64,000 nt of DNA from a virus. Position 1 is the first letter of the stretch; each line of letters starts with the position of its first letter. The notes under the pieces are model-generated. The model worked only from the letters and a program-made list of their open reading frames with translations, ran no database searches and was not told the origin of the DNA. Positions 1-64,000 of this stretch are shown here, piece after piece. The position numbers and the translations under genes were made by a program. The stretch covers positions 16,470 through 80,469 of IMG/VR virus record IMGVR_UViG_3300025010_000007, one strand, 5' to 3'.

Positions 1-75
1 GTAGGCGTACGACCGACCGTAGCTGAGGATCAAGGCGAACACACCCGCACTCGAACCGTAGCCCCAGGAGCCACC
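1..75 (-). other. Putative DGR variable region (VR) of the tail protein, partial
   Basis: Read on the minus strand, the codons after RGG are a conserved frame (GG-W-G-S-AGVFAL-L-RS) interrupted by residues whose codons are TCC, GGC, TAC, AGT, ATC, AGC, TAC, TAC, GCC and TAC. All can be derived from AAC or AAT by changing adenines only. That is the footprint of adenine-specific mutagenic retrohoming. The template repeat and reverse transcriptase are not in this window and would be expected just beyond its left edge. Confidence 0.7.
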
Positions 76-1188
76 ACGAAAGGGCACCCGCTCTCCGTAG
101 TTTCGTATTTGTAAGTTGTCGCCACCATGGGACGCATCAACAGAAGCTAAACCTAAAAGTTTTGCTATATTAGGTACCGTTATACCACCTGCAGCAGTAA
201 GACTTTCAAATAAAACCTGAGAATATCCATAGTCAAATTGACCTCCTGGGATATACATAGGGTTGCTTATTACTGTATTGATCTTAGGATCGCCGCCTAC
301 GTCATGGGATGTAGTAGTCGAATCTCCGGCAGACGTATTGTCATATTTAAGTGTACCTGCAGTGCCAGGAGCAACTAAACTTCCATCTGTTGCAAGTATC
401 GCTTTCCATTCTGCACTGCCCGCCGCTTGATCTTTAGTGTTATCAGCAGCATTATTATCGGCAAGGATCTGGATTTCACCGTTAAGACGAAGGCCACCGA
501 CCCACTCGGACACATTTCCGTTTAAGTCATAGATGCCGAAAGGACTTCCATCATGGCTCCACGCTACTGGACCGCTGCCGGTTGCTACCCTACCTGTCTT
601 GTTGACTCCGGTGTCTTTATGTGACGGTATGCCTTTTTCTGTTGCAACAGCGGCATCATATCCATAGTTGTTGTTACCGCGTGGCATAAATCCGTTTTTC
701 TTGCACCAAAGTGCAACGGCTGCCCACTCCGCGTTGGTCACGAGATGCCAACCTACACCTTTTAACTTGCAATTTGTTAGCGCAGAATCAATTGTCAATG
801 AGTTTGCCGGGTCTTGATATTTCAGTGATAGTGCCCTTGCTGCAGCTCCGCTGCCAACAACGATGTTTTGGTATTTTGACACATAAATAAATGGTTTAAT
901 CACACCATTTAAGATGAATGCCGAATGGGGATATTGTCCGCCACCGGTAAGGACATCTGCTTCATTGAAGCAAGGAACGACCACCATAACGGAAGGATTG
1001 CCCTGGTCATCAAATATTACAGTATTCCGACCAAAGCTGGCATCCTGTACCCGCTCACGCCAGGACCGCTGTTCTGCGGCATCGGTAATAACTCCGCTAC
1101 GCTGGAATCGCTCAGTAAGCGAGATTTCAATTTCGTTAATATCCCTAAGAAGTTGCCCCTGGGTATATGGACCACTAATGTATTGCAT
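1..1188 (-). CDS. Tail-tip/fibre protein with FGE-type C-lectin domain; DGR variable protein (3' end cut by window)
   Basis: The frame is open for 396 codons from ATG 1188 to the window edge with no stop, so the C-terminus lies outside. Residues about 130-240 carry formylglycine-generating-enzyme/sulfatase-modifying-factor hallmarks (GWHLVTNAEW, then YDLNGNVSEWVGGLRL near residue 225), the C-type-lectin-like fold used by phage receptor-binding proteins. The last residues read RGGSWGYGSSAGVFAL and SYGRSYAY, the layout of diversity-generating retroelement target proteins. It is the last gene seen in the tail operon and starts immediately after the stop of the 72-codon gene. By position and fold it is the host-recognition protein. 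FGE enzymatic activity is not expected. Confidence 0.85.
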   Translation of the reverse strand, partial: MQYISGPYTQGQLLRDINEIEISLTERFQRSGVITDAAEQRSWRERVQDASFGRNTVIFDDQGNPSVMVVVPCFNEADVLTGGGQYPHSAFILNGVIKPFIYVSKYQNIVVGSGAAARALSLKYQDPANSLTIDSALTNCKLKGVGWHLVTNAEWAAVALWCKKNGFMPRGNNNYGYDAAVATEKGIPSHKDTGVNKTGRVATGSGPVAWSHDGSPFGIYDLNGNVSEWVGGLRLNGEIQILADNNAADNTKDQAAGSAEWKAILATDGSLVAPGTAGTLKYDNTSAGDSTTTSHDVGGDPKINTVISNPMYIPGGQFDYGYSQVLFESLTAAGGITVPNIAKLLGLASVDASHGGDNLQIRNYGERVPFRGGSWGYGSSAGVFALILSYGRSYAY

Positions 1189-6593: not shown

Positions 6594-9500
6594 CTATACC
6601 CCCTGGAAGCTGGTATGCCGCCCTATAGTGAGTCGGGCTTGCTGGGCTTTAAAGCCACTTCTTCTTTCTAATATATCAGCCACGCGTTCGGCAAGTACCC
6701 TAGAATCCTCACCCGGCTGTTGATAAATGTTTATTGTCACATCTCCATGATTATACACTTCCTTCCTGCCCAACACATCTGACAGTCTATGATTAGGTGT
6801 AATTTGACTACCCCGCGGTACATTCATTAACTCAGGCCCTTTTTCACCTACCCAGGCTAAGCCACCAGGGGCAGAATCCGTACCTGCAGCAAATCGAGCT
6901 ATATTGTCATACATACTACCAGCTAATGCCTGACCACCAAACGAGCCCAAACCTGCACCAACTGCTGCACCAATCAGTGCTGTCAAAGGCGATAAAACAC
7001 CAGCGCCGACAAGCGATCCGGTTACAGCACCAGTTAAAGCCCCTACTCCTATGGAACCCAGTGAAGAGCCTAGTTCTTTTGCTAATGCTTGCTTTTTATC
7101 ATTTGCACTAATTATTTCCGATGCAGAAGCAAACAGTGCTAATGGTATAGCTAATCTTGAGAGTGTCTTAGTTATATCACTAAATCCCCGTGCAAGGTTT
7201 TTTGCTTGGTGGGCTATCCTGCGAACCTTATCCGCTTCTTCTATTGTGTTTGTTTTAGCTATTTTCTTCACATAGTCTTTATGAATTTCATGTACGGCTT
7301 TTTCATATCCAGTTCTACTAGATTCAAGCCCTACCGCCGCGTATTCAGCATTGTTAGCGCTATTTTGTATTTTTTCGCTACCGAAAAATCCTTTGACCCC
7401 ACCCCAGGCATTAGACATGAAATTTCCAATACCACCAAAGAAACCTCCTTCAGCGTGCATTGGAATCCCTAGCATCTCTCCAGCCCTTTGCCATAAGGCT
7501 AGTGCTCCACCTCTTCTGCTTAGGGACAGAGGAATAATGACCTCTGGGCCAGCCTCACCTACAAGCCCAAGGTGTGAGCTGGTTATAATGCCACCGGAAG
7601 CGTACTTTGCAAGTGTCGAACCAGTTTCGCCTGACGTAACACTTACACTTCCGCCTATACCTGCACTCCTTTTAATATTTGACCATATCTCTTGCACCGC
7701 ATGGACAGGGGACGTTGCCATGGACTTAATACCATCCACCAACATGCTTATTATATTGGCACCGAGATTATAAAAATCTGTTCCTAAGTTACCAAGAGTA
7801 GACTTCATATCAGTCCATGTATCGGAAAACATATTTTTGATGTCTGTCCAAGCCTTGCCCCATTTACCCGTTAAGATATCGCAACCAATAACAATAATAC
7901 CAGACACAATATCCCATGCAATTTTAATTACTCCCACAATATAATCCCAAGCTAGTTTGGCTGAACTTTTAATGACACTCCAAGCACCTTTTAGAAATGC
8001 AATTGCTGGCTGCACACCGTTTTTGATAAGCGGTCCTACCACTAACCATACATTTGCCATTGCCTGTTTTATAAGAGGCATATTAGTAATAAACCAGGAT
8101 TTAACCGTTGTCCATGCGCTTATCGTAGAACTTCTTACTGCGTTCCATGCTCCCATAATGGAATTCTTAATCTCATTAAATGCGGGCATAATCGCCGACT
8201 TAATAGTGTTCCAGAAACCAACCAATAATGGTCTTATGGTGTCCCAATTCTTGTACACAAGATAGGCAATACCTGCAACAGCAGCAATGGCAAGGACAGC
8301 TCCGCCAGAAAATAAGGCTATTTTACCGAAGGTGATACCAGCAACCGATAAGGCTAATTGTAGGGCTCTAAAAGATGTAACAACTACGGTAATTGCGCCA
8401 CCTATTGCCAAAAAAGCACTAACACCACCCGCAATAGCAAATATATATTTACTCACCTGGGGATGCTTATCAAAATATTTTGTTAGCACCTCCAGTTCAT
8501 CCCTTATAAGATTAAACATTTTCGATGTTCCATCAAGCAAAGGTGTGCCCAGCACGGTCAGAGATGTAACCCATGATTCTTTAGCTGTATCCATTATTTG
8601 GTTAAAATTCTGCATTTGCAAAGACACGCGCTCATTTAAGCTCAACTGATTTATTAAGCCATCTTGAATTTCCTCAAGCGAACCCTCCCCAGTTCGCAGT
8701 AGGGTGTATGCTGTCCTTCCGCCCTGTTCGCCGAACACTTTATGGAACAGTTTAATTAGTTTATCTGTACCCATCCCTTGCTCCGCCAGTTCAAATTGCC
8801 GCCCTATCTCTTTTTCATCGGCAATAATTTTGCCTCCACCGACAGTTTTTCGTAATATTTCCGCAATATCTTTAGCGGCTTTTAGTTGTCCTCGTGGATC
8901 TTTAGCGTAATCAAGGAATATAGACTTACCTGAACTGTCCAGCCAACCGACTTCGGCCATCATCTCTGTTTGTTTTTTTGTTTGCGGTACAAGGCGTTCC
9001 AGGAAGTTGCGTACAAATGTACCAGCGGAAGCACCTTCAGGTGTTTGAGTTCTGGTTAATGCAACCAGCACAGAAGAATCCAACACCTGTTCAGCTTTAC
9101 TCCTATTAAGCCACATTCGCGTAGCTACACCAGCCATATTACCCAGGCCCCGGTTAATATCTTCTGCATTTGCTGAAGAAGCTGCAGCTACTTTTGTTAC
9201 TGTATCAGCAGCTTCAAGCATTTGCTGGCCTGTCAACTGAAAACCAGCTCTAGTTTGAACCATAAGTTCTGCAGCAGATTCTGGAACCATTTTATTTAAC
9301 TGAGCAAATTTTATAGTGGCCTCAGCGGCTCCGTTCATAATATCCTGATACTGAATACCGCCCTTTTGAAGCTCAACAAAAACACGTCCGGCATCAAGAT
9401 TAGAAAATGTTGTTTCAAGACCTAACCTGGTGGTAAGGTTTTGAATGTCATGCATTTTTTGAGTAATTTCATTGGCCTTGGACGGGTCAAAAAGATCTTT

Positions 9501-10818: not shown

Positions 10819-10840
10819 AATTATTCCACGTGGAATAATT
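10819..10840. promoter_or_regulatory. parS: parS-like palindrome, site 1
   Basis: A perfect 22-bp palindrome with core ATTATTCCACGTGGAATAAT. The central TTCCACGTGGAA matches the half-sites of the Firmicute ParB/Spo0J target, apart from the outermost bases. It lies upstream of the small sigma-H gene at 10947 and is one of four copies in the window. Confidence 0.65.
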
Positions 10841-10906: not shown

Positions 10907-10946
10907 TGCCATGGGGTGTAATTCGAGAGAAAGAGAGGTGATTAAT

Positions 10947-14635: not shown

Positions 14636-14675
14636 TGCAATTAATGGAGCGGTTTCGAGGAAGGGAGGTGTATTT

Positions 14676-14831
14676 ATGTCAAAAATACCACAAAAGTCAA
14701 TTAGAGGTAGCGCTAATGACAGTGCGACAAAAGCTTCTATAGTTCCAGATAATTTCTCAGTTACTAGACAAAGTATTATTCCCGATAAGGCGCAACAACC
14801 AGATACAAACCAAACTTCTGATAAAAAATAA
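14676..14831 (+). CDS. Small hydrophilic peptide of accessory cassette 2
   Basis: 51 codons, ATG with GGGAGGTG 6 nt upstream. Ser/Thr/Asp/Lys-rich and probably unstructured (begins MSKIPQKSIRGS, ends NQTSDKK). It occupies the same place as the cassette 1 peptide, behind a matching sigma-H promoter and convergent with a paralogous membrane-protein gene. The two peptides share little beyond their start, so function may reside in expression or charge rather than a fold. Unknown role. Confidence 0.6.
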   Translation: MSKIPQKSIRGSANDSATKASIVPDNFSVTRQSIIPDKAQQPDTNQTSDKK

Positions 14832-14850
14832 GATTCAATTAATCATCCTT

Positions 14851-15504
14851 CTAGCCCTCTATTTCTATTGCCTTATTAAATTCATTGGCATTGTATATAA
14901 CTACAGCAACTCCCGATTTTGTATCCACATAAACCCTATCGACCGGGACATTGTATTTAGTTACAATGTCCTCAACTTTTTTAGAATCAGCTAGAAGAAG
15001 GCATCTTTCTTCTGAGATACTTTCTGACATATTTATTGGACTTCCATAAACTTTTGCATCTTTCAATATGACCTTTACTGCCTGTGATTCTTCACCATGA
15101 AAAGCATCTTCCCAAACCAAATTCCCCTCATTAAGCTCTGCTTTATTATTACTTTTTCTAAATTTATTAATTAGTTTAATTGCAAATTCCTTTTTGACAA
15201 AACCATTCCAACATCCACAAACTACATAAGCCATTAATAAACTCGAAAACATATATAATACTAAACCGCTTAACGACTTTATTTCTGTCTGCAATTTCGT
15301 AATATTTGCCGCCTCTAAACTACCCTCTTTTAATGCCAATAAAAACAAATTACCAATTAATACTGGTATTGAAAAAAGAACAGCTATTACCAACTTTTCT
15401 ATATTAGTATATTTGGCAGAGGGGTGTGAGCCGACTCGTTCATTTATCAGTATTGCAATTAGCCCCGGAGCCAACAATAATATGTATGCGAGCAAAGTAT
15501 CCAA
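14851..15504 (-). CDS. Multi-pass membrane protein of accessory cassette 2 (DUF6338-like)
   Basis: 217 residues, paralogous to 11092-11754: N-terminal helix LLAYILLLAPGLIAILINERVG, then EKLVIAVLFSIPVLIGNLFL, a third helix LVLYMFSSLLMAYVVCG and a cytoplasmic domain ending RVYVDTKSGVAVVIYNANEF. The upstream region has TTATAAT, suggesting ordinary sigma-A transcription, unlike the convergent partner. Could be a superinfection-exclusion or signalling membrane protein; this is inference. Confidence 0.7.
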   Translation of the reverse strand: MDTLLAYILLLAPGLIAILINERVGSHPSAKYTNIEKLVIAVLFSIPVLIGNLFLLALKEGSLEAANITKLQTEIKSLSGLVLYMFSSLLMAYVVCGCWNGFVKKEFAIKLINKFRKSNNKAELNEGNLVWEDAFHGEESQAVKVILKDAKVYGSPINMSESISEERCLLLADSKKVEDIVTKYNVPVDRVYVDTKSGVAVVIYNANEFNKAIEIEG

Positions 15505-15561
15505 AACTACACCCCTTATTAAATTATAACAAAATATGTACTTAAAAGCTTCAATTTAAAT

Positions 15562-15593
15562 CTAATCCCCCGGCTAAAATCTGACCGGGGGAT
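15562..15593 (-). terminator. Strong hairpin at the end of the tail chaperone frameshift product
   Basis: A 10-bp GC-rich stem AATCCCCCGG / CCGGGGGATT whose loop holds the TAG of the frameshifted reading frame. Only a weak T-rich tail follows. Confidence 0.55.
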
Positions 15594-16052
15594 TCTTTTC
15601 GTTCCAATCATTAACAACCTGCACGCATGCCAAAAGTTCAACCTCTGTCATGTCCATCGCTTCGGCATATGAAATACCTGCTCCGGAAGCCAAGGAAAGT
15701 TCGATCCGCAACTTGAACCATCCTTGATTTGCTAGTTTTTTGCCAGTTCCTCAAGCTTATCCTTTACAGACCTTGGCATGTTTTCTTTTTCAAATTCAGC
15801 CCATTCCTCATAAGTGAATTTATCCATCACCTCAAATATTTCAGCAAGGTTTTGAGGTACATCCACCTTTTCCCCATTAACGGCATCGACACTAATAATG
15901 TTCTGTACGGTCAAGGTTGACATAACGCCACCAATATTATGCCCACCTTCATCCATACTTGACGCTAAAAGTTTGCGCTCAATAAAATGGTGCTGGCCCT
16001 TCTTTTCCCGTAATTCAATTTTCTTACCGGTCGATAAAATAATTTCTAACAT
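15574..16052 (-). CDS. Tail assembly chaperone, -1 frameshift long form
   Basis: The 106-codon gene ends GCA AAA AAC TAG. At the slippery heptamer A AAA AAC (15741-15735) a -1 shift continues for 53 codons (LANQGWFKLRIE..., ending KNPPVRF) to TAG 15574, giving about 159 residues. The extension is clearly coding, and its position between tail tube and tape measure genes is where lambda G/GT-like chaperones lie. The long form recruits tape measure protein during tail assembly. Confidence 0.8.
15732..16052 (-). CDS. Tail assembly chaperone, short form (XkdN-like)
   Basis: 106 residues from ATG 16052 with CTGGAGG upstream. The sequence begins MLEIILSTGKKIELREKKGQ, contains a helical region (QNLAEIFEVMDKFTYEEW) and ends with the frameshift site. 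In PBSX-like phages XkdN occupies this place and serves as the G-like chaperone. Confidence 0.8.
   Translation of the reverse strand: MLEIILSTGKKIELREKKGQHHFIERKLLASSMDEGGHNIGGVMSTLTVQNIISVDAVNGEKVDVPQNLAEIFEVMDKFTYEEWAEFEKENMPRSVKDKLEELAKN
15735..15741 (-). promoter_or_regulatory. Programmed -1 frameshift slippery site
   Basis: A AAA AAC in the zero frame, immediately before the UAG stop of the short chaperone. A canonical X XXY YYZ heptamer. Confidence 0.8.
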
Positions 16053-16107
16053 GAACTATACCTCCAGAATTTTAATTTATTTTAACGTGGTTTTTCCACG
16101 CTCTTAC

Positions 16108-16545
16108 CTATGAGATTTTGCTACGCTTAACCGCATGCCAGTTTAATGTATTATTGAAAGGTTTATTATTACCGTCAACCGACTTCTTAAAGCCATCAAA
16201 GGTAACCCCTTCATATTTGTACTTTCGAACGGTGCCGTCCTTATAAGTCTCAGTAGTAAAAATCAAAAACTTAAGCGTACCGCCGTTTTGCTCCTGATAT
16301 TCGTTCTTTTTATCTACAATGTCATCGTAGGCTGTATTTACGCTTTGCCCTTCAATACTCCCCTTCCAGCCGCTTTGGATGACCTGGCGGTGCTCGGTTT
16401 CCTCACCAATGGGATTCTTTTTTTCTTCACTGGTTATTTCTTCAACCGACCATTTTAGGATTTCCGGTGTTTTCTCCAGAACATTACCTAATTCATCGGT
16501 TAGGGCAACTACAAGTTTTTTACCCAGCAATCCATCTTTGGCCAT
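16108..16545 (-). CDS. Tail tube protein (XkdM-like)
   Basis: 145 residues, ATG with GGAGGTG. Beta-rich with a DELGNVLEKTPEIL start and a typical tube end GFKKSVDGNNKPFNNTLNWH. It follows the sheath gene by 1 nt, the universal order in contractile tails. Confidence 0.85.
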   Translation of the reverse strand: MAKDGLLGKKLVVALTDELGNVLEKTPEILKWSVEEITSEEKKNPIGEETEHRQVIQSGWKGSIEGQSVNTAYDDIVDKKNEYQEQNGGTLKFLIFTTETYKDGTVRKYKYEGVTFDGFKKSVDGNNKPFNNTLNWHAVKRSKIS

Positions 16546-20314: not shown

Positions 20315-23300
20315 TTAAGAGTTGTAAAATTTAATGGTCCGGTACGGCGGGTTGTAAGTTACCCCATCTTTGTCCGTTACCAGCGGAGTGGCAATACTTA
20401 TTTGCTGTGTGGCGTGGTACTGCTTGGCTGAAGTGATTTTGCCATCCGTTGTATAATACGGATCCGGCCCCTCAATCTGCATCGGGGAACCAGTACCGAA
20501 GCGAGTTGCATTAATTTTGCCAAGTAGAATCCTTTTGTCCCCAGCCACCCAGGGAACGTTTACTTCACCTAGTTGTAAGCCATTTCTGGTTGCAAAATAC
20601 ATTCGGCCCTGCAATAGGTTTGTTCCTTCCGGAGAGGCAGACTTATAGAACAGTTCCGCAATCTTTGCATTTACCATGGCATTTAAACTGCCAATGCCGA
20701 AATTAGGTACCGAATATCTAGGGGCACCACCCATATAAGCTTTCTCGTAATCGAAAAGCTCTAATAGTCTGTTGTAATACTTGGCAGCTTCTACTCCGCT
20801 TGGTACTGTTAAATTAAAAAACGATATATTAGTAGCATAGCTGTAAGAGATGGTTGGCTTATTGGTATCATTGTCCACCCCGGACGCCTCAGTCAAATAG
20901 ACTTTTGCATTTTCAAAGTCAACTGCATAGTCAGCACCAGCAGATATTTTGCCGGTAACTGGGTCCCATGTGCCTCGTGTAAGGGTGGCAACCCCTAGCT
21001 TAGCAGTAATCGGTTTTGCGGTTGTAGTTTGCTTTTGGCCTGCCGGGTCAATGTACTGGCGAACCCTCGGTCGTACTACAGGTGGAACAGTTGCACCAAT
21101 AACTCCAGTAGAATAACCGCAAAGAAGACTCACAATCCATGCAGCATTTGAGCCAGTCGGGACATTGGTTCCAGGAACCGCAACAGCTATTTCTGCAGCA
21201 GCGACAGCTTCATTAGTCACAGCTACAGACTGGTATTCATCAGAGATGTGCAACATTTCAAGACTTAGGCGCTGGTCTATATAGCGAGAGAAACGCATGG
21301 CTAAATTAGCTAGGTTCCGAGCCAGCACATCATAATTAAAGGGGCCGGTCTGCAACTCGCGCATAGCCTCCTTAGTAACTACGGTACCGCGCTTCATCCA
21401 CTCAGCACCGAATTCCAGGGTTACAGTGGACACGCCTTCAGTGGGAATACCGTCAATTTCACCCACAATTAGGTCATCCTGAGAATATAGATCCATGGAT
21501 GTTATTTCAGACAGTATTTTATGAGTGGTACCACTAAACGGTTCAGCCATTACCAGTTGTAGGAACATGAGGTCCTGCCATACCTGTTCCATAATCGCTT
21601 GAGAGATAATAGGTGCCTGGGCAAAGTCTCCAGTAGTACTGATAGCAGAATCAGTAATAGCTCCATCCGTAATAACTTGGGCAGAATCAGTCAAAGTCTT
21701 CATGTATTTGGTATATTCCGGGTTATTTTCTCTGTCCATACGGGCTAAGATATTATTTAAGATAGATCTATTTGCTTTTCGCAAGTCGGGATCCGGTAAC
21801 GCACCTGTCCTAATTTTAATTTGGTCATCCAGTGCAGCTTGAAGATTATCGACAATAGGCCTCCAAGGCTGGGCAGCAGCACCTATCTGAATTTCCGGGT
21901 CAATAACTGCAACTCTACCCGCCATGGGAACACCCAGGGCAGCCAACTTGCTGCTTATGGCAATAGAATCAACAAAAGCCTTTTCCTGCTCAATAAACCC
22001 AACTACCTGTGCGGCATCGGTGATAGCCTCACCCTTTTTAATCAAGGCATCTTTGGTTTTTTGGTCATAAGGTAAGGCGGTTACAGCGTCAGTGAGTGCC
22101 TGCTGTGCGGCAGTTTTAGCTTGTGCGGCAACTACTTCTGCCTGGCGTGTTTCTTCTGCCTGCCTAAACTTGTTTAACTCATCGGTCAGTGCGGTGTGCT
22201 GATCTGCCTGTTCTTTTGCGGCGATCATGCTGTCGCAAATGCCAACATACTCATTGTCGGCGTTCTGCGCTTTCCATGCCTTAAGTTCTGCAAGGGTCAT
22301 TAAATGAAATTTGGGCACGTTATCGCCCTCCTTTTTGTTGAGTTGATCTAATATTTCGGATACTGCGGAATCGGTTAGCTGCTGTGGCGTATCAAAGGCG
22401 TCAACTTCTGCTGGATTCAACACGATATCCCAAGTGTAAAGAGTTAACTGCTTGGCCACACCAACTTGTTTTCCGTTAACCCTCGCGGGCACTAATTTAC
22501 CGGTCATACGGTTACTAAAACCTATAGGCAGTCCGGCATCCAGCATGGCCTGCACCTGCTTGCCCATATCGGTTTGTAGTGGTTTAAACTCAGCGATTAC
22601 GTTCCCTGCTGCGTCAATATCTGCCTTCCTGAACTTGACCGCCTGGTTAGGTACTTTGGAATCAAAAAGCACCCTGCCGTCAGCGCCTTTGAAGCTGCGG
22701 GGGTGTGGATGCTCTCCAGCGTACGGGAAACCTGCATCACTTAGTGCTTTTAGCGCTGGACCATAGACAGGACGTGGGTAAAGTCTGACATTGCCGTTTA
22801 TAGCGTCGACTTTAGACACCGTCTGCCGGTACCAACCAGACGGTTTTCCGGCATTATCAGTAATCGCTACTGCTGCACTAATACAAACGTCCTGCATCTC
22901 TCCTGCTTCGTCAGTTATTGCGCCGTGTTGTGCGTCAGAAACTACAGTAACAGTGGCATTTTGCATCTGAAAACCAGCTTGCGCCGCTATTTTTTGTGCT
23001 TCTTGCTCTTTTCTGACAGCATAGCCTATATCCCAATAACCAAATTCAGCGCTACATTTAGCACCTATAGCTTCGTAATAAATCCTCCGATCAACTTCTG
23101 TTAAGGCACTATTAGCGAGTTTCTTTTTAATGGCCAGAAGTCCGACCGCTGTTGTTGCGGCCAGTATTTCAGCCATTTGAGGATCATCGGTCAGCGCGTC
23201 AGTTACTGGAGCTGTATTGTCATCTGTTGCATTGTCGTTTATAACCTGCTCCTCGCCGGGCCTAAATCCGATTGTATTTCCTTTTTCGCCAGGCTCCAAG

Positions 23301-23344
23301 CTATCTAAAATAGCTTCTTCCCAGTCGCTATTTGGCAGTTTCAT
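20315..23344 (-). CDS. Fused prohead protease-scaffold-major capsid protein
   Basis: 1009 residues. Residues about 130-310 resemble prohead proteases: GEHPHPRSF supplies a His and GFSNRMTG a Ser at the expected spacing. Residues 370-460 form an Ala/Gln/Glu-rich helical segment like a scaffold (delta) domain. From about 560 onward is an HK97-type capsid: QVWQDLMFLQLVMAEPFSGT, GTVVTKEAMRELQTGPFNY and a C-terminal IATPLVTDKDGVTYNPPYRT. The order protease-scaffold-capsid in one polypeptide implies self-processing during head maturation. Confidence 0.82.
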   Translation of the reverse strand: MKLPNSDWEEAILDSLEPGEKGNTIGFRPGEEQVINDNATDDNTAPVTDALTDDPQMAEILAATTAVGLLAIKKKLANSALTEVDRRIYYEAIGAKCSAEFGYWDIGYAVRKEQEAQKIAAQAGFQMQNATVTVVSDAQHGAITDEAGEMQDVCISAAVAITDNAGKPSGWYRQTVSKVDAINGNVRLYPRPVYGPALKALSDAGFPYAGEHPHPRSFKGADGRVLFDSKVPNQAVKFRKADIDAAGNVIAEFKPLQTDMGKQVQAMLDAGLPIGFSNRMTGKLVPARVNGKQVGVAKQLTLYTWDIVLNPAEVDAFDTPQQLTDSAVSEILDQLNKKEGDNVPKFHLMTLAELKAWKAQNADNEYVGICDSMIAAKEQADQHTALTDELNKFRQAEETRQAEVVAAQAKTAAQQALTDAVTALPYDQKTKDALIKKGEAITDAAQVVGFIEQEKAFVDSIAISSKLAALGVPMAGRVAVIDPEIQIGAAAQPWRPIVDNLQAALDDQIKIRTGALPDPDLRKANRSILNNILARMDRENNPEYTKYMKTLTDSAQVITDGAITDSAISTTGDFAQAPIISQAIMEQVWQDLMFLQLVMAEPFSGTTHKILSEITSMDLYSQDDLIVGEIDGIPTEGVSTVTLEFGAEWMKRGTVVTKEAMRELQTGPFNYDVLARNLANLAMRFSRYIDQRLSLEMLHISDEYQSVAVTNEAVAAAEIAVAVPGTNVPTGSNAAWIVSLLCGYSTGVIGATVPPVVRPRVRQYIDPAGQKQTTTAKPITAKLGVATLTRGTWDPVTGKISAGADYAVDFENAKVYLTEASGVDNDTNKPTISYSYATNISFFNLTVPSGVEAAKYYNRLLELFDYEKAYMGGAPRYSVPNFGIGSLNAMVNAKIAELFYKSASPEGTNLLQGRMYFATRNGLQLGEVNVPWVAGDKRILLGKINATRFGTGSPMQIEGPDPYYTTDGKITSAKQYHATQQISIATPLVTDKDGVTYNPPYRTIKFYNS

Positions 23345-34536: not shown

Positions 34537-34714
34537 TTTTCAACCAGCGCGCCATGCCCTTCAAAATCAGATCCAGAGCCACATCCACAAACTGGCACTT
34601 CAAGTGATCCAGTGCCTTGACCTTGGTCATTTTATTCATGCTCTCATGGTTCTTCTGGCAAAATTCCCTGACTTCCTCAACCTGCTGTTCTTCCTGCTCA
34701 GTCCTCTTAGCCAT
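34529..34714 (-). CDS. Small helical protein, unknown
   Basis: 61 residues, starting in a TAATG junction with the large parB gene. Charged helix (RTEQEEQQVEEVREFCQKNH) and an amphipathic C-terminal helix. Probably co-expressed with ParB. Confidence 0.6.
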   Translation of the reverse strand: MAKRTEQEEQQVEEVREFCQKNHESMNKMTKVKALDHLKCQFVDVALDLILKGMARWLKSA

Positions 34715-37158
34715 TACATGTACCCCCCCCCTATGCCAACTATCTGACTATTAACCTGTGCCAACAATCTCCTGTCCTTCTCCTGCTGAATCCTGAACTT
34801 TCCGTTTTCCCGGCAATCCCGGAACAGTACCATGTCTAACTCCTTTTCGCTCGCTGCGCGAAGTTGAAATCTATACTCATCACTGTCCAAAGGAAATTGC
34901 AGTAACTTATCGACAGTGGACATCATTTCACATCCATTGGGTGCTTGTCCTCTAAATCCGGGTAGATATATGCCATTGCCTTGGTTTTCTTGCTGCCCTG
35001 GCACTTCCTCCCCAACCCTCTTCCAGCCCCTCTTTGTCGCATATTCCACAAGGTTCCTCTCAGCCTCTTCCCTGGTCGGGACGTACGGCATCGACGTTGA
35101 TTTCATGCAGGTAGGCGCATCTTCTCCGTCCTTTTGGTAGAACGTTCTGTACCCGATTATCCTGCCGCGAGAATTGTAAGTAATAAACAGTATCCGTCCC
35201 GTATCGTCTATGTGGTGGCAGGTCTCTCCGAAAGGATTAAATAGCTCCTGTTTCTGCCCCAAAACTGAAGGTTCCTGTTGCGGTTTTTCCTTCTCCGCCA
35301 AAGCTGGGGCTGAAAAACCTCTACAGGCGTGAAACAGCTTGCTATTTTCCTCGAAACCATGCCAGTTCGTTGCTTTAATACTAAAGTCAGCGTTGATGCA
35401 CCGGTCCCGTAAAAATCCATTAGTCCCTGCTGGAGACTTAAATATGCAACCATCCGGGCAGTTGTCGTGAGTGTTATGAGTGCTTTTGTGGTTAAATTCG
35501 GGATTTTCTTTTAAAGGCAAAACATTGGATTCTGATACTGCAGTTTCAAAAACTCCCCGGCAGTTCTTCCACTTTTCTTCCGGATCCTCAGTGTAACTGT
35601 CGTTAAATAATTCTGGATTACTGCACCGGTAATGTTCTCTCTCCAAGTGCATCACTTTAACTTTATATTTACATTTATCAGGGCAGTCGAAGTGTGTATT
35701 CATTGTATTTTGCATGGTATATTCACTGTCCACTTCGACTACTACCGGTACCGGCTTATTGTGTTTACACTCGCCGTTTGAACACATCTTAAACGGCTGT
35801 CCCTCATTCATCACTGTAACGACGTGTTCACAGTTCACCTGGCATTTTGCCGTATACAGGAATGTGTTTTCCATGGTGTAAACTGGTTCCTGCTCCTGCA
35901 TCTTAAGTTCCCAGCACTCAGGCTCGGTGCAGCGGAGTGTATGCGTCTCTCCGTCATTCGGGTCAATCAGATATGACTGGCCAATACTGCAGTCGCTGCA
36001 GTCAGCATGATCTGGCAGCGGCCTTGATTCTTCCCAATCCTCTTGTCTACTGGCTTGCAGATCAGCAGCTAATAAATCCCTGCGTTTTTTAGCCTCTGCC
36101 AGGAGTATTAGTAGATATTCCTTATCAACTTCAGTGCTGATGTGGCTGCCAAGCTGCTCTTCTGTCAAACCTTCCGCTACCTGCCTGAGAGTCTCCTTCT
36201 GCTCCTCGGATAGTGACTCTTGTTCCATATCGCCCAGCAACATCACATCATTCCACACGCACCCAATGCCTATCTGTTCCCTATGCATTGCAAGTTTTTT
36301 ATACTCGCAAACTTCACATTTAAGTGTAATTTCTTGTTCCTGCACTCCTGCTGCCACTAAAGCCAATCTGCGGGCCTGTTCTGCTGTGACAGTATCTATT
36401 GCTGCAGCTATCTCCTGAGAGGATTTTAGTCCTTCCCTTTCCGCCTCACGCTCTGCTCTCAGCCTCTGCCGTTCTTCCTCTTGTCGTGCCAGTTCTTCCT
36501 CCAGTAGCCTTTTTCGCTCGTTTTCAGCAGCTATCTCCTTGGCCACTTCCTCGCTCTGAACAGCTATTTCTCTGGCTATCTCCCTGACTGGTAGCCCCTT
36601 AACAACACTTTCAGCCACACGCTCCATAATTTCTTGACCAAACATTAACTTTTTGGCGGCCAAAAGTTCTTTGGCGTGACCGGGCCCAATTATTCCACGT
36701 GAAATATTTTCCCTCACACTCTCCGGCAGCTCTAACAATCGCAACCGGTTTGCTATATGACTTTGGCTCTTACCCAGTCGCTCGGCTAACTCCTCCTGCT
36801 TCAGTCCGGCATCCAGGAGCAACCGGAACCCCTGCGCCTCTTCGATGGGGTTTACGTCCTTGCGCTGCAGGTTCTCGACAACCATAATTTCAAGCTCCTG
36901 CACTTCATCCAGGCCGTATCGGATAATTGCAGGTATTGCAGACAGCCCTACTTCCCGTGCGGCTCTCCAACGACGTTCCCCTGCTATCAGGCGGTATGTT
37001 CTTGGGGTTATTTCAGCCTCAACTACCACTACCGGCTGCAGTATTCCGACACTACGAATACTGGCGGCAAGCTCGGTCAAAGAGTTGTCATCAAAGATTT
37101 TTCTCGGATTCTGCGGATTCGGAATTATCATGTCAAGCGGTATGTTCATCATGCTCAT
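34714..37158 (-). CDS. parB: Large ParB/Spo0J-family protein with tandem Cys-rich modules
   Basis: 814 residues, ATG with GGGGTGAG. Residues 1-200 form a full Spo0J-type core: PNPQNPRKIFDD, GERRWRAAREVG (60-71, CTP motif), ENLQRKDVNPIEEA (95-108) and HTH QEELAERLGKSQSHIANRLR. A coiled coil covers 200-260. From 275 onward come four or five modules with a CxxxC pair, a later Cys and NTxxxxC starts (CQVNCEHVV, CPDKCKYKV, CPDGCIFKS). The C-terminal part (after 650) is not recognised. Typical Spo0J is about 285 residues. A parS-like site lies within residues 150-157. Confidence 0.85.
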   Translation of the reverse strand: MSMMNIPLDMIIPNPQNPRKIFDDNSLTELAASIRSVGILQPVVVVEAEITPRTYRLIAGERRWRAAREVGLSAIPAIIRYGLDEVQELEIMVVENLQRKDVNPIEEAQGFRLLLDAGLKQEELAERLGKSQSHIANRLRLLELPESVRENISRGIIGPGHAKELLAAKKLMFGQEIMERVAESVVKGLPVREIAREIAVQSEEVAKEIAAENERKRLLEEELARQEEERQRLRAEREAEREGLKSSQEIAAAIDTVTAEQARRLALVAAGVQEQEITLKCEVCEYKKLAMHREQIGIGCVWNDVMLLGDMEQESLSEEQKETLRQVAEGLTEEQLGSHISTEVDKEYLLILLAEAKKRRDLLAADLQASRQEDWEESRPLPDHADCSDCSIGQSYLIDPNDGETHTLRCTEPECWELKMQEQEPVYTMENTFLYTAKCQVNCEHVVTVMNEGQPFKMCSNGECKHNKPVPVVVEVDSEYTMQNTMNTHFDCPDKCKYKVKVMHLEREHYRCSNPELFNDSYTEDPEEKWKNCRGVFETAVSESNVLPLKENPEFNHKSTHNTHDNCPDGCIFKSPAGTNGFLRDRCINADFSIKATNWHGFEENSKLFHACRGFSAPALAEKEKPQQEPSVLGQKQELFNPFGETCHHIDDTGRILFITYNSRGRIIGYRTFYQKDGEDAPTCMKSTSMPYVPTREEAERNLVEYATKRGWKRVGEEVPGQQENQGNGIYLPGFRGQAPNGCEMMSTVDKLLQFPLDSDEYRFQLRAASEKELDMVLFRDCRENGKFRIQQEKDRRLLAQVNSQIVGIGGGYM
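36688..36709. promoter_or_regulatory. parS: parS-like site 3, inside parB
   Basis: Core ATTATTCCACGTGAAATATT, matching the other sites with one change in the outer arm. A parS inside the parB gene also occurs on the B. subtilis chromosome. Confidence 0.6.
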
Positions 37159-53772: not shown

Positions 53773-54111
53773 CTACCTAGCCAAGCGCAAAGGCTTTGCA
53801 GTAGCTATAGATTTTTTCTCCTGCTCAGCCATCCAAGCAATAAGAGACTCTTCGCGAAGCAGTATTTTTACGCCAAAGCGTGAACAAGGTATTTCACCTT
53901 TATTTATCAGTTCACGCAATTTTGTCTCACCTATAGCACCCTGAAAAAACTCTTTTGCTGCCGTTTTGACGGTGTATATATTTTGAGGCTTATGTTCCTG
54001 TGCTTCCGGCTTCGGCTCAGGTTTTGGTTCTGGGCGTTGAATCATTCGGCCACACTCTGGGCAGAATTTAGCTCTGTCCGGTACCTTAAAACCGCATTTG
54101 CACTTTAGCAA
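53773..54111 (-). CDS. xis: Excisionase-like protein with N-terminal zinc ribbon
   Basis: 112 residues: CKCGFKVPDRAKFCPECG ribbon, a PEPKPEPKP linker, then a MerR/Xis-type HTH (VKTAAKEFFQGAIGETKLRE, then LINKGEIPCSRFGVKILLRE). HTH_17 proteins of this kind are phage excisionases; in the early leftward operon it would be made on induction. Confidence 0.65.
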   Translation of the reverse strand: MLKCKCGFKVPDRAKFCPECGRMIQRPEPKPEPKPEAQEHKPQNIYTVKTAAKEFFQGAIGETKLRELINKGEIPCSRFGVKILLREESLIAWMAEQEKKSIATAKPLRLAR

Positions 54112-54777: not shown

Positions 54778-54795
54778 AATAGTGAGGTGAGATTA

Positions 54796-55245
54796 ATGCG
54801 GTTAGGGGAAAGACTTACAAAGCTTAGAAATAATAAGGGGTTAACACAAAAAGAGTTATCACGCATATTCTCTATGTCAAGAAGCACATATGCCCAGTAT
54901 GAAACTAATAACAGACAACCAGATTATGAAACTCTTTCGCGCATAGCAGATTACTATAGCGTAACTACTGATTATCTTTTGGGTAGAACAGATAATCCAA
55001 ATCAACCCCAAAAACAAGATCCGCCTAACTACGATGAAATGGTTTTATCTGCCCCAACTCTCCCCGACGCTCTTAGTTTAGCTGCCGCATTAGAGGTTGA
55101 ATATAACCTACCTAAAGAGTGGTTACATAAAGCCTGGGCCAAGGCAATAGAAAAGTTTGGCGTACCGAAGCCAGTAAAGTATTCAGATCCAGCTGCACAT
55201 AATAACGGTTTACCGGGTACAGGAATTTTTAATAATAAGGAATGA
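54796..55245 (+). CDS. CI-like repressor
   Basis: 149 residues from ATG 54796 with AGGTGAG. Residues 1-60 are an XRE HTH (LGERLTKLRNNKGLTQKELS, then SMSRSTYAQYETNNRQPDYE). The remainder is a helical dimerisation part. There is no S24-type peptidase domain, so inactivation probably depends on the ImmA-type neighbour rather than RecA-stimulated self-cleavage. Confidence 0.8.
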   Translation: MRLGERLTKLRNNKGLTQKELSRIFSMSRSTYAQYETNNRQPDYETLSRIADYYSVTTDYLLGRTDNPNQPQKQDPPNYDEMVLSAPTLPDALSLAAALEVEYNLPKEWLHKAWAKAIEKFGVPKPVKYSDPAAHNNGLPGTGIFNNKE

Positions 55246-55855: not shown

Positions 55856-56929
55856 TTGAGCTTTAGAGAAAATATTCAGAAGTTATCAGTTCAAGTTATA
55901 GAACGCAAGAAGCATATCACAAATGAAGAAATGACTAAACAGGCTTTAATAATCCCGTTTCTTCAGGTGCTTGGATTTGATGTGTTTAATCCTCTAGAAG
56001 TAAAATCAGAATATGATGCTGATTTTGGAAAGAAAAAGGGCGAAAAGGTAGACTATGCTATTTTTAAAGATGACATGCCTATTATGTTTATTGAAGCCAA
56101 GACGGTAAATGAAAATCTTGAAAACCATGACGCACAGCTTTCTAGATATTTTAATACTACCCCCAATGTTAAGTTAGCCGTACTTACTAATGGCATGCAG
56201 TATAAATTTTTTACTGATCTTAAATCTAATAATATGATGGATGAAGATCCGTTTATTCAGTTAGATATAACTAATTTATCAGATAATGATATTGAAGTTT
56301 TATCTAAATTTAGGAAAGAATCTTTTGAAAAAGATGAACTCCTTAAGTATGCCGAGGATATTATTTATACCTCAACACTTAACAGTAAATTAAGAGAATT
56401 ATTCAGGAATCCATCCGATGATTTTGTTAGGTATTTGATTAAGGATTTTAGTGATACCCGCATAACTGCCAATGTTGTGGACAGGTTTAGGCCTATTGTG
56501 AAAAAGGCTATATCTAATGCAGTTCTGGATATTGTCAGTCAGGGTTTACTGCAGCAGGGTGGGGATGCAGAAGAAGTTAAATCTGAGGAGAGTCAACCCG
56601 AAGACAACTGCACACATAAGCCCAAGAAGGAGATTATTACAACCGAGGAAGAATTGAGCGGATTTAGTATTGTTAAAGAAATATTGGCTGAAGCTGGCAA
56701 AGATTTGTCAGAGGTTAATTACAGAGATACAACCGCTTACTTCGGTATTTTTATAAAAAATGCATTAAGCTGGATTGTGCGCTTTAATTTTGATAGTAAT
56801 AAAGGCAAGCATATACTAACTAAACTACCTCTGGAGAGGTCTAAAATGCTGGCCGCTAACTTTAACTGCGAAACCGCACCCAAGGGTCATGGTGAAAGCA
56901 GAATATACATAAATTCCATGATGATCTGA
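55856..56929 (+). CDS. Orphan HsdR_N-type nuclease-domain protein
   Basis: 357 residues from TTG 55856 with AGGAGG. Residues 25-130 have the type I restriction R-subunit N-terminal pattern: KQALIIPFLQVLGFDVFNP, then EKVDYAIFKDDMPIMFIEAK (D and E-x-K nuclease residues), and NVKLAVLTNGMQYKFFTD. No helicase follows. Such stand-alone proteins are common in phages and host defence islands. As a gene of the lysogen side it may protect the host; not proven. Confidence 0.72.
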   Translation: MSFRENIQKLSVQVIERKKHITNEEMTKQALIIPFLQVLGFDVFNPLEVKSEYDADFGKKKGEKVDYAIFKDDMPIMFIEAKTVNENLENHDAQLSRYFNTTPNVKLAVLTNGMQYKFFTDLKSNNMMDEDPFIQLDITNLSDNDIEVLSKFRKESFEKDELLKYAEDIIYTSTLNSKLRELFRNPSDDFVRYLIKDFSDTRITANVVDRFRPIVKKAISNAVLDIVSQGLLQQGGDAEEVKSEESQPEDNCTHKPKKEIITTEEELSGFSIVKEILAEAGKDLSEVNYRDTTAYFGIFIKNALSWIVRFNFDSNKGKHILTKLPLERSKMLAANFNCETAPKGHGESRIYINSMMI

Positions 56930-57294: not shown

Positions 57295-57386
57295 CTAAGC
57301 AGAAGGTTTAATTTCTGCCAGCTTTGCTTTTCATTTTAAGCAATAGCAGGCGAAAAGTCAATCCTTCTGTAATAGGGGGTTTGATA

Positions 57387-58547
57387 ATGGGCACGGTAAA
57401 ATATAACGAGAAAAAGAAATTCTACGAAGTAAGATACGATGCCCCACTTGACGGAGAGGGTAAGAGGGCACAGAAGTATAAGGGCGGGTTTAAGAAAAGG
57501 AAGGATGCCGATGCGTTTCTAGCTGAACAAACTGTTAGCCTTAATCACGGAACCTATATTGATCCGCAAAAAATGTTTATGTTTCAGTACCTCAATGACT
57601 GGCTAGAAGATAAAAAGCAAGGTATTTCACCCACCACATACAACGGCTATGAGATAAATATAAGGTGTCACATCAACCCTTATATCGGCGGTATCCGACT
57701 GCAGGACTTAAAGGCTACGCACATTAGAAAATTATACTCTCAGTTACAGCAAGAACGGGATATTAAGGTGGATGGAGAAAAGAGAAATTTTAAAGCACTT
57801 TCAGGCACATCTATTCAATATGTTCACCGTGTATTATCTAAGGCGTTGGAAGATGCGTACATGGAAGAAACTATTTTTAAAAACCCTGCCAAGCTGGTTA
57901 AGCCACCAGCAAAGGAAAAATTTGAGGCTGGCTTCTTGTCTGTAGATCAGATAAGGGAAATGCTAGTCAGATTTGAAGATGATAGTATGTACCTACCGGT
58001 ATATTTGTCAGTTGTTTTAGGTGCTCGTCGCGGTGAAGTGCTGGGCCTGCAGTGGTCAAACATAGATTTTGATCATAAAGTTATCAAGATTCGCAACAAC
58101 TACATTATGAATAATGGCAAGCCTGAATTAAGAGAAAAGACTAAAACTGATTCATCTACCAGGGATATAGTTGTCACGGATAGAATGATGAGAGCACTTA
58201 AAGACCACCGAAGAAAGCAAAAGGAAATGCGACTGCAACATGGAAAAATGTATCATGTTTCGGATTTTGTTTGTACCTGGCCGGATGGAAAGCCATTTAA
58301 TCCGTCTCATGTATCCAGGGCATTCAGTTTGCGGATGGAAAAGTATGAACTACCGGTTATTCGATTCCATGATCTCAGGCACTCGAATGCCTCATTAATG
58401 TTATCCAGGAATGCCCCTATGAAAGGAGCAAGTGACCGACTGGGACATAGCACCATAACAATCACAAATGATTTTTATGGCCACATTGAGCGATCGGTAC
58501 AGGAGGAAATAGCAAATATAATAGACCAAGCTATATGGGGCGAATAA
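57387..58547 (+). CDS. int: Tyrosine recombinase, phage integrase
   Basis: 386 residues from ATG 57387 (GGGGG at -11; a TTG at 57324 is less likely). Arm-binding domain (1-55), core-binding SAM-like domain (60-160) and catalytic domain. Catalytic residues: Arg in GARRGEVLGLQW (about 213), Lys in EKTKTDSSTRD, HDLRH (about 327-331), LGHSTI (353) and Tyr in NDFYGHIE (about 363). Lies next to the att site. Confidence 0.95.
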   Translation: MGTVKYNEKKKFYEVRYDAPLDGEGKRAQKYKGGFKKRKDADAFLAEQTVSLNHGTYIDPQKMFMFQYLNDWLEDKKQGISPTTYNGYEINIRCHINPYIGGIRLQDLKATHIRKLYSQLQQERDIKVDGEKRNFKALSGTSIQYVHRVLSKALEDAYMEETIFKNPAKLVKPPAKEKFEAGFLSVDQIREMLVRFEDDSMYLPVYLSVVLGARRGEVLGLQWSNIDFDHKVIKIRNNYIMNNGKPELREKTKTDSSTRDIVVTDRMMRALKDHRRKQKEMRLQHGKMYHVSDFVCTWPDGKPFNPSHVSRAFSLRMEKYELPVIRFHDLRHSNASLMLSRNAPMKGASDRLGHSTITITNDFYGHIERSVQEEIANIIDQAIWGE

Positions 58548-58565: not shown

Positions 58566-58606
58566 ATTTCACAACCTAAAAATAATGTGAAATGAATGTG
58601 AAATTA
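58566..58606. promoter_or_regulatory. Integrase arm-type sites, left arm
   Basis: TGTGAAAT at 58586 and 58597 (11-bp step), with an inverted copy ATTTCACA at 58566. Confidence 0.7.
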
Positions 58607-58652
58607 CAGTGAAAAAGCCACCTTACTTTAGTTAAGTAAAGTGGCCTCTAGG

Positions 58653-58717
58653 TGGCGGAGAGACAGGGATTCGAACCCTGGAGACGCTGTTAACGTCTAC
58701 TCGATTTCGAGTCGAGC
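58653..58717 (-). other. att: att core: 3' half of tRNA-Ser(CGA)
   Basis: The minus strand holds the anticodon arm CTCGACTCGAAATCGAG, a variable arm, the T-arm GGTTCGAATCC and the acceptor 3' strand with CCA, but no D-arm or 5' acceptor half. It is the recombination core, not a functional tRNA. Confidence 0.85.
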
Positions 58718-58824
58718 AATTAGTTTATCATATATTATCATATCAATCACAAACCTAGATATAGCGGGTTTTTTAAAATTATTAGTATTATTTTTTTCAT
58801 AAAATCTAATGAAAAAGTTTATAT

Positions 58825-58845
58825 TTTGTGAAATACCTGTGAAAT
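58825..58845. promoter_or_regulatory. Integrase arm-type sites, right arm
   Basis: TGTGAAAT at 58827 and 58838, the same orientation and 11-bp step as on the left. Arms on both sides indicate an attP-type arrangement. Confidence 0.65.
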
Positions 58846-60003: not shown

Positions 60004-62646
60004 TTATTTTTTCTTCCGTGACTCCTTGACCTCTGCTTGCCTTTCCTCCCGCCAAGCCTCATCCTGTAGTGTGATCCGTCTTTTGTTTTGTATATACTCA
60101 GTCACTTCTTTCCAATGCCGCCCAAACATTTTCGAACATTCAGACCGTCGATAACTCCGATCCTTAACTTGTTTAGGCGGTGCTGTCATGTGACAGATAA
60201 AAGCAGGTAGCGAATCAGCCCCTGGCAGCTCCATCTTGCAAGCAGCAACCCAACGCTTGGGTAGTTGCTCATATAGTTTTTTGGCTTCCAGCGGGTTAAG
60301 TTTCTCCGCATGGTCAGTAAAAGTTTTCTGCAGTTCCGTTTTGAAAAAGTTAAAGAACGGCCCACCGGCATAAATCCCGGCTTTGTATTTACCAAACTGT
60401 TCGGCTGAGTGGGCAAGAAAGATCATCTTATTCCGATACTTCCGGGCCTCCACTCCTATTTCCCCGTCCAGGAGTGGCCCGGTTCCCTCCAGGCAATTAT
60501 GAGGCTCGTCAATGATGGTATAGAACGGCCTGCGCTTTTGTTGGGGAGTATCCAACCGGCTAAGAGTAGCAAGCCATATTTTAGCCATCAAAAATGATGC
60601 TACCCGGTTAACCCCGTCTTTGCCTAGTTCGGCCTTGGGGATGCGGAGCCCGACAAAGTACCCGCCTTCATCCATCATTTGCCGAAAATCAAGCGCAGGC
60701 TTGCCGTCCGGACGTAACTTCTCCGACTGCAGAAAAATATTAGCAAGCGTCCTTTTCCCGGCAAGTAGATTCAACCTGTCTAATATAGGCTGTACCAGGC
60801 TTTTGTCGGTGCCTTTAATAGCCTTGGCTTGCAGCTCCCGGAGTACGTCAACGACTTCCGACTGAGACTGGATAACCGGGTCTTGTAATAGTTCCTCTCG
60901 GTAAACCGGTGAGGACAAAGCCAGCACCACATCCAGCAGTCCCCGCTTAGGGTCTGTGAGTACACCCTTGCCCACCGGAGATAAGAAGTATTCCATCCGG
61001 TCGGAAAATTCGCTAGAAGCTAACTGGTTGATAAAGGTATATATGTAGTCGGTCATTCGCTCTGCTGCATCCAGCGCGGCAAGTTCGTCCTCCCCCGCCT
61101 GCATCCCGCGCAAAGCAACGTCAGTCAAGGTTAAAGGGATAGGCCAGTGTTTATTTCCAAAATCTAAGTCAAGAATTTTGTGATCTGGCATATCAGCCGG
61201 TAAAGCGTCTCTGACTGAGTTAATAGCATCACCATCGGCCATGTCGAAAAGGAATACCGTTCTGTTATTTTTAACACCTTCGACAGCAAGCACAATCCCC
61301 CTCCCTGTTTTCCCGCATCCCATATTTCCGTAGTCAATCTCTGTTTTGCACTCAATATCTGGGTCGCTGATAGGCAGTTTAGCCTCACGCGTAACACCCC
61401 GGTCTGTTACCCTGCCCAAAGGAATGCCAACAGTACCAAATAATTCGGCCGGCAAGGTGACCTCCTGGAGCTTAATCCCGTTAACTTGCGGGTAATCCTC
61501 CTGCAGTTCCCGGCCTGGGATCTGTATAAGCTTCCCAGCCTCTGCGGTCGATAGAATGCTATGGTTAAATTTCAGCTTCGGCAGGCGCTTAGTGGTTATG
61601 GCCTTGATAGCAGCGGCCTTTTTCTTCTTATTTTTTACCTCCCGGGCCTCAAATTCATTATCACTGGCAAGGTCAGCAAAAGCCCCTGCCAACGTCCTGG
61701 CCGTCGATTCCCGCCTTCCCCTATCGTCAGACTGGGCGACTATCCAGAGGTATGTTCTCATGGCCCCCATGCCGCCTTTGCGCTTTGTGGCCGATGTTAA
61801 GTTTTCGATAGCAAACAAACCGGCTTCGGGATCTACTTCTTTCTTGGCGTACCGATTCTCCTGCTTGTCGGACTTGATCATGTCAGCTACACTCAGCATA
61901 GTCTCTTGCATGAACTGCCCGGCGCACGTCAGGCCCAACCTAAAATACGCTCGAGCATCACCGTTGCGCTTTATCGGTTGCCGTCCGTTACGCAGTATTT
62001 CCCAGGCTTCCTGGTATGTCGCGTTCCAGTCCAGGCGGCCAACAGGATCGAAAAATACAAAAACTTTTGCCTTGTCGCCTGCCTCGAGAGATTTTACGGC
62101 TTGGAGCAGGGACGGCAAAGGTAGGTTGTTTTTGCTGTCGGTCAGGAGCGAATACATATCATGCTTTCTTAGCACCAGTTCATAGATAACGGTCGTTTCT
62201 TTGTCCCATTCCTCGCTGTATCCTTCATCTACCGTGATAGTTGACTTATCCCAAATGCCGGACAGCCGACGAATCCAGCTATCGACACGATCCCCCGGCA
62301 CTGCCAGGAGAAAATCAATACTTTCGGCAGTATAATCGATCTCCCACGTTGCCCGGTCAGGTGCTCTGTAGCGAAGTTTCCAGCCGTCCTCAAAATAGAA
62401 GCGATCCAAAGGTATTTTGAAAGCATCTGTGATTGATTTAGCTATATCCTCAGTGTGCCAGTTCCGGGCCGATGTGTCAGGACGGATACGGATAACTTTA
62501 TGCTCAGGTGCAACGATCTGGTAGTGGTCGCGGAAATTAAAACGCTGTTTTTGCTCCGTTTCGTACCATTCTGCGTCGATGAAATCGGGCTGATTATTTC
62601 GAGGAACCAAAGCCGTAGACTGAAAAAACTTTTTAATAAAAATCAC
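60004..62646 (-). CDS. HerA/VirD4-VirB4-like DNA translocase ATPase
   Basis: 880 residues from GTG 62646. Walker A IDYGNMGCGKTGRG (about residues 455-468). Walker B FYTIIDEPHNCL (about 730), followed by ARKYRNKMIFLAHSAEQFGK, the sensor strand of conjugative ATPases. No membrane helix at the N-terminus, unlike typical coupling proteins. Such single ATPases are carried by conjugative or mobilisable elements of Gram-positives. The divergent RHH genes may form the partner DNA-binding proteins. Confidence 0.75.
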   Translation of the reverse strand: MIFIKKFFQSTALVPRNNQPDFIDAEWYETEQKQRFNFRDHYQIVAPEHKVIRIRPDTSARNWHTEDIAKSITDAFKIPLDRFYFEDGWKLRYRAPDRATWEIDYTAESIDFLLAVPGDRVDSWIRRLSGIWDKSTITVDEGYSEEWDKETTVIYELVLRKHDMYSLLTDSKNNLPLPSLLQAVKSLEAGDKAKVFVFFDPVGRLDWNATYQEAWEILRNGRQPIKRNGDARAYFRLGLTCAGQFMQETMLSVADMIKSDKQENRYAKKEVDPEAGLFAIENLTSATKRKGGMGAMRTYLWIVAQSDDRGRRESTARTLAGAFADLASDNEFEAREVKNKKKKAAAIKAITTKRLPKLKFNHSILSTAEAGKLIQIPGRELQEDYPQVNGIKLQEVTLPAELFGTVGIPLGRVTDRGVTREAKLPISDPDIECKTEIDYGNMGCGKTGRGIVLAVEGVKNNRTVFLFDMADGDAINSVRDALPADMPDHKILDLDFGNKHWPIPLTLTDVALRGMQAGEDELAALDAAERMTDYIYTFINQLASSEFSDRMEYFLSPVGKGVLTDPKRGLLDVVLALSSPVYREELLQDPVIQSQSEVVDVLRELQAKAIKGTDKSLVQPILDRLNLLAGKRTLANIFLQSEKLRPDGKPALDFRQMMDEGGYFVGLRIPKAELGKDGVNRVASFLMAKIWLATLSRLDTPQQKRRPFYTIIDEPHNCLEGTGPLLDGEIGVEARKYRNKMIFLAHSAEQFGKYKAGIYAGGPFFNFFKTELQKTFTDHAEKLNPLEAKKLYEQLPKRWVAACKMELPGADSLPAFICHMTAPPKQVKDRSYRRSECSKMFGRHWKEVTEYIQNKRRITLQDEAWREERQAEVKESRKKK

Positions 62647-63730: not shown

Positions 63731-63974
63731 ACGAGAAATTAATAAGATTGCCAGCAGAATAAAAAAGGCCAACTTAGTAATTTGGGCAGCAATACATTAT
63801 GCCGAAGAAATCTACGGAATCATGGATAGTGCAACAGAAGAAGAAGTTAGGAAAATTTCTCTTAGACTAAAAGAAATTGATCAAGAAGTTTTAGCCGATC
63901 CGGAAACTTACGCCTTGTTCTTTCAAGAATACCAGGAAATGGCGAAAAAAATAGAGAAATATCAAAATAATTGA
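63723..63974 (+). CDS. Partner of RHH protein B, unknown
   Basis: 83 residues from ATG 63723. All-helical (NKIASRIKKANLVIWAAIHY, then EEEVRKISLRLKEIDQEVL). Unrelated to the partner of protein A, so the two RHH genes were duplicated without their partners. Confidence 0.6.
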   Translation: MTRREINKIASRIKKANLVIWAAIHYAEEIYGIMDSATEEEVRKISLRLKEIDQEVLADPETYALFFQEYQEMAKKIEKYQNN

Positions 63975-63978
63975 TAAT

Positions 63979-64000
63979 ACTAACCGCTTCGGCGGTTTTT
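63979..64000 (+). terminator. Terminator of the plasmid-like operon
   Basis: AACCGC TTCG GCGGTT followed by TTT at the window edge. Confidence 0.75.

Follow-up and report, generated by a model that had tools for sequence, protein, structure and literature searches.

A Probable Intact attP Built on the 3' Part of a tRNA-Ser(CGA) Gene in an Uncultivated Temperate Myovirus

RESULTS

A partial tRNA gene beside a phage integrase gene may mark one end of an integrated prophage or, alternatively, the attachment site of a phage in circular form. Which of these applies is the question raised by positions 58566 to 58845 of a 64,000-nucleotide stretch of viral DNA, here called the window. The window covers positions 16470 to 80469 of the 80,469-bp IMG/VR record IMGVR_UViG_3300025010_000007 and includes the right end of that record. 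A preliminary description, made from the window's sequence, had read this locus as an attP rather than as part of a simple integrated prophage, and had proposed a circular form or a tandem of elements as its source.

The candidate core is the 3' part of a tRNA-Ser(CGA) gene (58653 to 58717, minus strand), starting with the 5' strand of the anticodon stem and ending in CCA. In the minus-strand direction, from 58717 to 58653, it comprises the anticodon arm (CTCGA-CTCGAAA-TCGAG, anticodon CGA), a long variable arm, the T arm, the 3' acceptor strand, and CCA, but has neither a 5' acceptor strand nor a D arm. The tRNA-Ser 3' half lacking its 5' half, as originally noted, is therefore real, and an ARAGORN search of the window and of the record's left 16.5 kb detects no complete tRNA. 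Just past the tRNA 3' end, the fold predicts a phage-borne intrinsic terminator with a 16-bp stem and a U run (about 58612 to 58649, minus strand); the fold of the tRNA part together with the terminator has a z score of -4.6. Two Rfam matches in this region, “sX4” and “Plastid-psbl-rps4,” were rejected, as both fall short of their gathering scores and stem from the tRNA remnant. The sX4 model, an Rfam sRNA, aligns over its full length to the remnant (58616 to 58753, minus strand; 28.7 bits versus a gathering score of 70 bits), which raises the separate question of whether sX4 is itself a tRNA-Ser attachment-site remnant.

The core lies 105 bp from the end of a gene for a 407-amino-acid tyrosine integrase (57324 to 58547, plus strand), as assigned by Pfam (PF14657, PF14659, and PF00589) and by PHROG 1, integrase (E = 1e-69). 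The protein has an N-terminal arm-binding domain (Arm-DNA-bind_4), a SAM-like core-binding domain, and a catalytic domain, and the catalytic R, K, HxxR, H, and Y motifs are legible in its translation. Upstream of the integrase gene are a metalloprotease-like gene and a gene for a Cro/CI-type HTH protein, the likely lysogeny repressor (54787 to 55245, plus strand; Pfam HTH_3, E = 6e-15). A zinc-ribbon and HTH_17 protein (53773 to 54111, minus strand) is a candidate excisionase, a guess from its fold family alone. Between the repressor region and the integrase gene, positions 55856 to 56929 encode a protein with an N-terminal nuclease domain resembling that of type I restriction R subunits.

Both sides of the core carry short direct repeats. 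On the plus strand, TGTGAAAT starts at 58586 and 58597 on the integrase side (58586 to 58604) and at 58827 and 58838 on the distal side (58827 to 58845), and an inverted copy lies on the integrase side at 58566 to 58573 (minus strand). Each pair has an 11-bp step and is a candidate pair of arm-type sites that the integrase would bind. The pairs reported previously are thus exact to the base. The window holds eight copies of TGTGAAAT, versus 3.1 expected, and five of the eight fall within the 280 bp at attP. A first-order Markov model of the 302-bp intergenic region, simulated 20,000 times, never produced any 8-mer as two pairs sharing one step of 9 to 13 bp. Sister phages, found via a gene for an 880-amino-acid protein, have different integration modules, so homologous arms could not be aligned. 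One of them, with a different integrase (27% identity), has GTTGGGC repeats of its own after the integrase gene, likewise at an 11-bp step (8305 and 8316, plus a third copy at 8573, on the reverse complement of contig L077), and this suggests that such repeats belong to the integration module.

Arms on both sides of a tRNA 3' part that lacks the 5' half point to an attP. We consider it very probable that this locus is an intact attP and that the phage, temperate, contractile-tailed, and about 80.3 kb in length, was assembled from DNA in circular form, whether excised, replicating, or newly injected.

If so, a chromosomal partner should carry the complete gene. When 84,980 genomes were scanned with a pattern derived from the core, a single one matched, the metagenome-assembled genome (MAG) Pelotomaculum sp. 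UBA3103. There, a complete tRNA-Ser(CGA) gene adjoins a tadA-like gene and matches the phage core at 64 of 65 bases; the match spans CCA to the anticodon arm inclusive and stops at the expected places. The complete tRNA-Ser(CGA) that the preliminary description had suggested seeking elsewhere is thus present in this MAG and absent from the record. When attP and this segment, the predicted attB, were joined in silico, the integrase-side junction formed a full 92-nucleotide tRNA-Ser(CGA) recognized by ARAGORN, while attP alone gave no tRNA. Since the attB genome is a MAG and the core has one mismatch, UBA3103 is possibly not the true host. No relatives of the phage's capsid/protease-like protein were found in 25 genomes of the predicted host family, so the host call derives from the tRNA core only. 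The host group is likely Pelotomaculum relatives, with the exact host a matter of inference. Downstream of the attB tRNA, the MAG contains a second, poorly paired tRNA-Ser(CGA)-like structure (L006, 1289 to 1374), possibly the remnant of a further integration at this site.

Elements integrated at tRNA-Ser(CGA) do occur in relatives of the predicted host. In G010:C127, from the same family as UBA3103, an element whose integrase is 38% identical to that of the phage lies between a full tRNA-Ser(CGA) (721 to 814) and a 3' fragment (23248 to 23309). This tRNA, too, adjoins a tadA-like segment, and both tRNA ends are followed by a terminator-like sequence. Judged by its sequence, this layout is the one expected of an integrated copy. 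It lends some plausibility to the idea that our site is one end of an ordinary prophage, with similar repeats by chance on the other flank, or a junction of two adjacent elements. Yet the window shows neither of that element's two marks, the complete tRNA and the far-end 3' fragment, on either side: the tRNA 5' half is missing on either side, and the same 8-mer recurs with the same 11-bp step on both flanks. In addition, the DNA beyond the right arm pair leads into a phage-family gene (phrog_5156) that is also present in sister phages, and the contig ends overlap exactly (see below). Chromosomal genes with a complete tRNA-Ser at the distal end, which the preliminary description had named as speaking against its reading, were looked for; the record contains no tRNA and no recognized host block. 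An ordinary prophage end is thereby largely refuted, and we give it almost no weight compared with an intact attP. The phrog_5156 gene (60004 to 62646) encodes the 880-amino-acid protein mentioned above, which has no Pfam match and is 86 to 90% identical in sister contigs. Its flanking genes differ among these contigs, so that the gene behaves as a unit within a mosaic genome, whether by moving or by staying in place.

Whether the contig circularizes had been proposed as a check. The first 164 bases of the record are the same as its last 164, and the record would thus close as an 80,305-bp circle; the right-hand copy, at 63837 to 64000 of the window, has the same bases as record positions 1 to 164 and is the predicted closure point. 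On the basis of this overlap of contig ends, the record is very probably a closed viral circle. Three other contigs carry the overlap sequence (L008 and L052 from the right-end side, L053 from the left-end side), and each terminates within it; among the contigs found to contain the sequence, none crosses it. The overlap consists of the conserved end of a small open reading frame and a terminator, and it is near-identical in co-occurring sister phages, between which its flanks diverge more than the block itself. Because of this, assembly may break there or join falsely. A terminal repeat physically present in virion DNA was also considered as the source of the overlap, but identity is high through the end of the reading frame and the terminator and falls beyond; a conserved gene end shared among co-occurring sister phages fits this pattern better.

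A circular map may also arise from an internal junction of a chromosomal tandem (polylysogenic) array of the same phage, which would likewise show both arms and only the 3' part of the tRNA. A contig of one repeat unit would look circular as well, so the end overlap fits both forms. Against this, none of the contigs found for this phage shows a chromosomal junction, and a monomer circle is the simpler state for an excised or replicating temperate phage. Two more IMG/VR contigs from other datasets span attP with both arms (UViG_3300025154_001031, 99.99% identity; UViG_3300001242_000811, 100% identity), and an integrase search of viral contigs returned near-identical contigs only. The original reading of the locus, as an attP in a circular form or a tandem, agrees with the arms on both sides and with the end overlap; monomer and tandem are inseparable from contigs, and we regard the tandem array as improbable relative to a single circle carrying an intact attP.

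The gene content of the record is that of a temperate myovirus (with a contractile tail) with an integrase and a repressor. Head and packaging genes include those for a terminase small subunit, a T4-like portal/Mu-F-like protein, and a head-protease-like capsid protein that is 58% identical to a protein of Brevibacillus phage Emery. Tail sheath, tape measure, baseplate, amidase, replicative helicase, and ParB genes are present as well, as is a diversity-generating retroelement. The latter spans record positions 14674 to 16423 and window positions 1 to 1188 and encodes a reverse transcriptase, a bAvd-like accessory protein, and a target with an FGE-sulfatase fold. Its 87-bp template and variable repeats (TR, record 15894 to 15980; VR, window 1 to 87) differ at 14 positions, 13 of which are template adenines on the coding strand.

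The ParB gene (34714 to 37158; 814 amino acids) and parS-like sites had been cited in support of a plasmid-like circular form. Both are real. The near-palindrome TATTCCACGTGRAATA occurs in the window at 10822, 11818, 36691, and 57154 and in the left part of the record at 10920, with a weaker match at 1834; one copy is within the ParB gene, and another is just upstream of the integrase gene. These features would suit a phage-plasmid maintained as a partitioned circle, in which integration is rare or vestigial. However, no ParA ATPase (PF13614) was found in the record, leaving the ParA, ParB, and parS partition set incomplete, and orphan ParB genes are common in phages. Moreover, the integrase, attP, and repressor are all intact. 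A plasmid lifestyle is therefore not shown by ParB and the parS-like sites, and the partition argument is weak, unneeded, and not evidence for the circle. We consider a phage-plasmid unlikely, if slightly less so than the tandem array. The same low probability is given to a mixed lifestyle, in which a temperate Bacillota myovirus without a ParA of its own would alternate tRNA-Ser integration with a ParB/parS-assisted circle, perhaps using a host ParA.

DISCUSSION

An intact attP in a circular temperate phage suggests the following scheme. The N-terminal domain of the integrase would hold the paired 11-bp-step arm sites on both sides, while the remaining domains would bind and cut the tRNA-derived core. 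Through strand exchange, probably with a crossover near the anticodon, the core would recombine with the host tRNA-Ser(CGA) gene. Since the phage brings the tRNA 3' part together with its own terminator, the host tRNA would remain functional beside the integrase gene. After integration, the phage terminator would end the restored tRNA transcript ahead of the convergent integrase gene, and the displaced 3' part of the host tRNA would mark the far end of the element.

The outcome is an uncultivated 80-kb temperate phage, very probably caught as a circle, with an attP located to the base and a predicted attB. The latter provides this phage, which carries a diversity-generating retroelement, with a testable host: Pelotomaculum relatives, which are anaerobic syntrophs.

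The type of site is well known and its mechanism standard; what is gained is a cleanly resolved further example. Three features of a lambda-type attP are found here: a three-domain integrase, a core near-identical to the predicted attB in a predicted host, and repeats placed like arm sites on both sides; a fourth, integrase binding to arms and core with recombination of attP and attB, is predicted. In lambda, a separate N-terminal domain of Int binds arm-type sites that flank the core on either side (PMC4880445). The phage shares this plan of putative arm-type sites flanking the core and a separate Int N-terminal domain, with binding here predicted from the sequence. In contrast, lambda (PMC4880445) uses a non-tRNA target, and its IHF, Xis, and Fis sites are without demonstrated counterparts in the phage.

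Among cyanophages, Synechococcus phages Yong-L1-251 and Ssp-JY37 carry a 48-bp tRNA 3' remnant with 90% identity, located directly after the integrase gene in Yong-L1-251. Both differ in being unrelated 34-kb phages, and the region after the Yong-L1-251 integrase gene showed no matching pairs with an 11-bp step.

The closest published layout is that of the Cluster J mycobacteriophages, such as Omega and BAKA. These integrate at a tRNA-Leu attB, with a 44-bp common core about 100 bp downstream of the integrase gene and paired direct-repeat arm sites of about 10 bp flanking the core on both sides; their integration was shown experimentally (PMC3706429). Cluster J phages and the phage described here thus have in common a tyrosine integrase, a tRNA core about 100 bp on, and arm pairs on both sides (PMC3706429). 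Here, however, the host is another, the target is tRNA-Ser(CGA) rather than tRNA-Leu, the core is 65 bp, the arm motif is TGTGAAAT with an 11-bp step, and integration is predicted.

The Islander catalogue lists islands and prophages integrated in tRNA genes and includes an anticodon-centered, 3'-fragment class (PMC4383910). As the core extends to the anticodon arm, the phage belongs with this class of tRNA-targeting elements (PMC4383910). In both cases, an attP-borne tRNA 3' fragment that starts in the anticodon arm restores the gene upon integration (PMC4383910), and this restoration, the mark of tRNA-targeting elements, was obtained in silico for the phage. For the Islander elements, the circular form was inferred from the integrated copy (PMC4383910), whereas in our case it was assembled directly.
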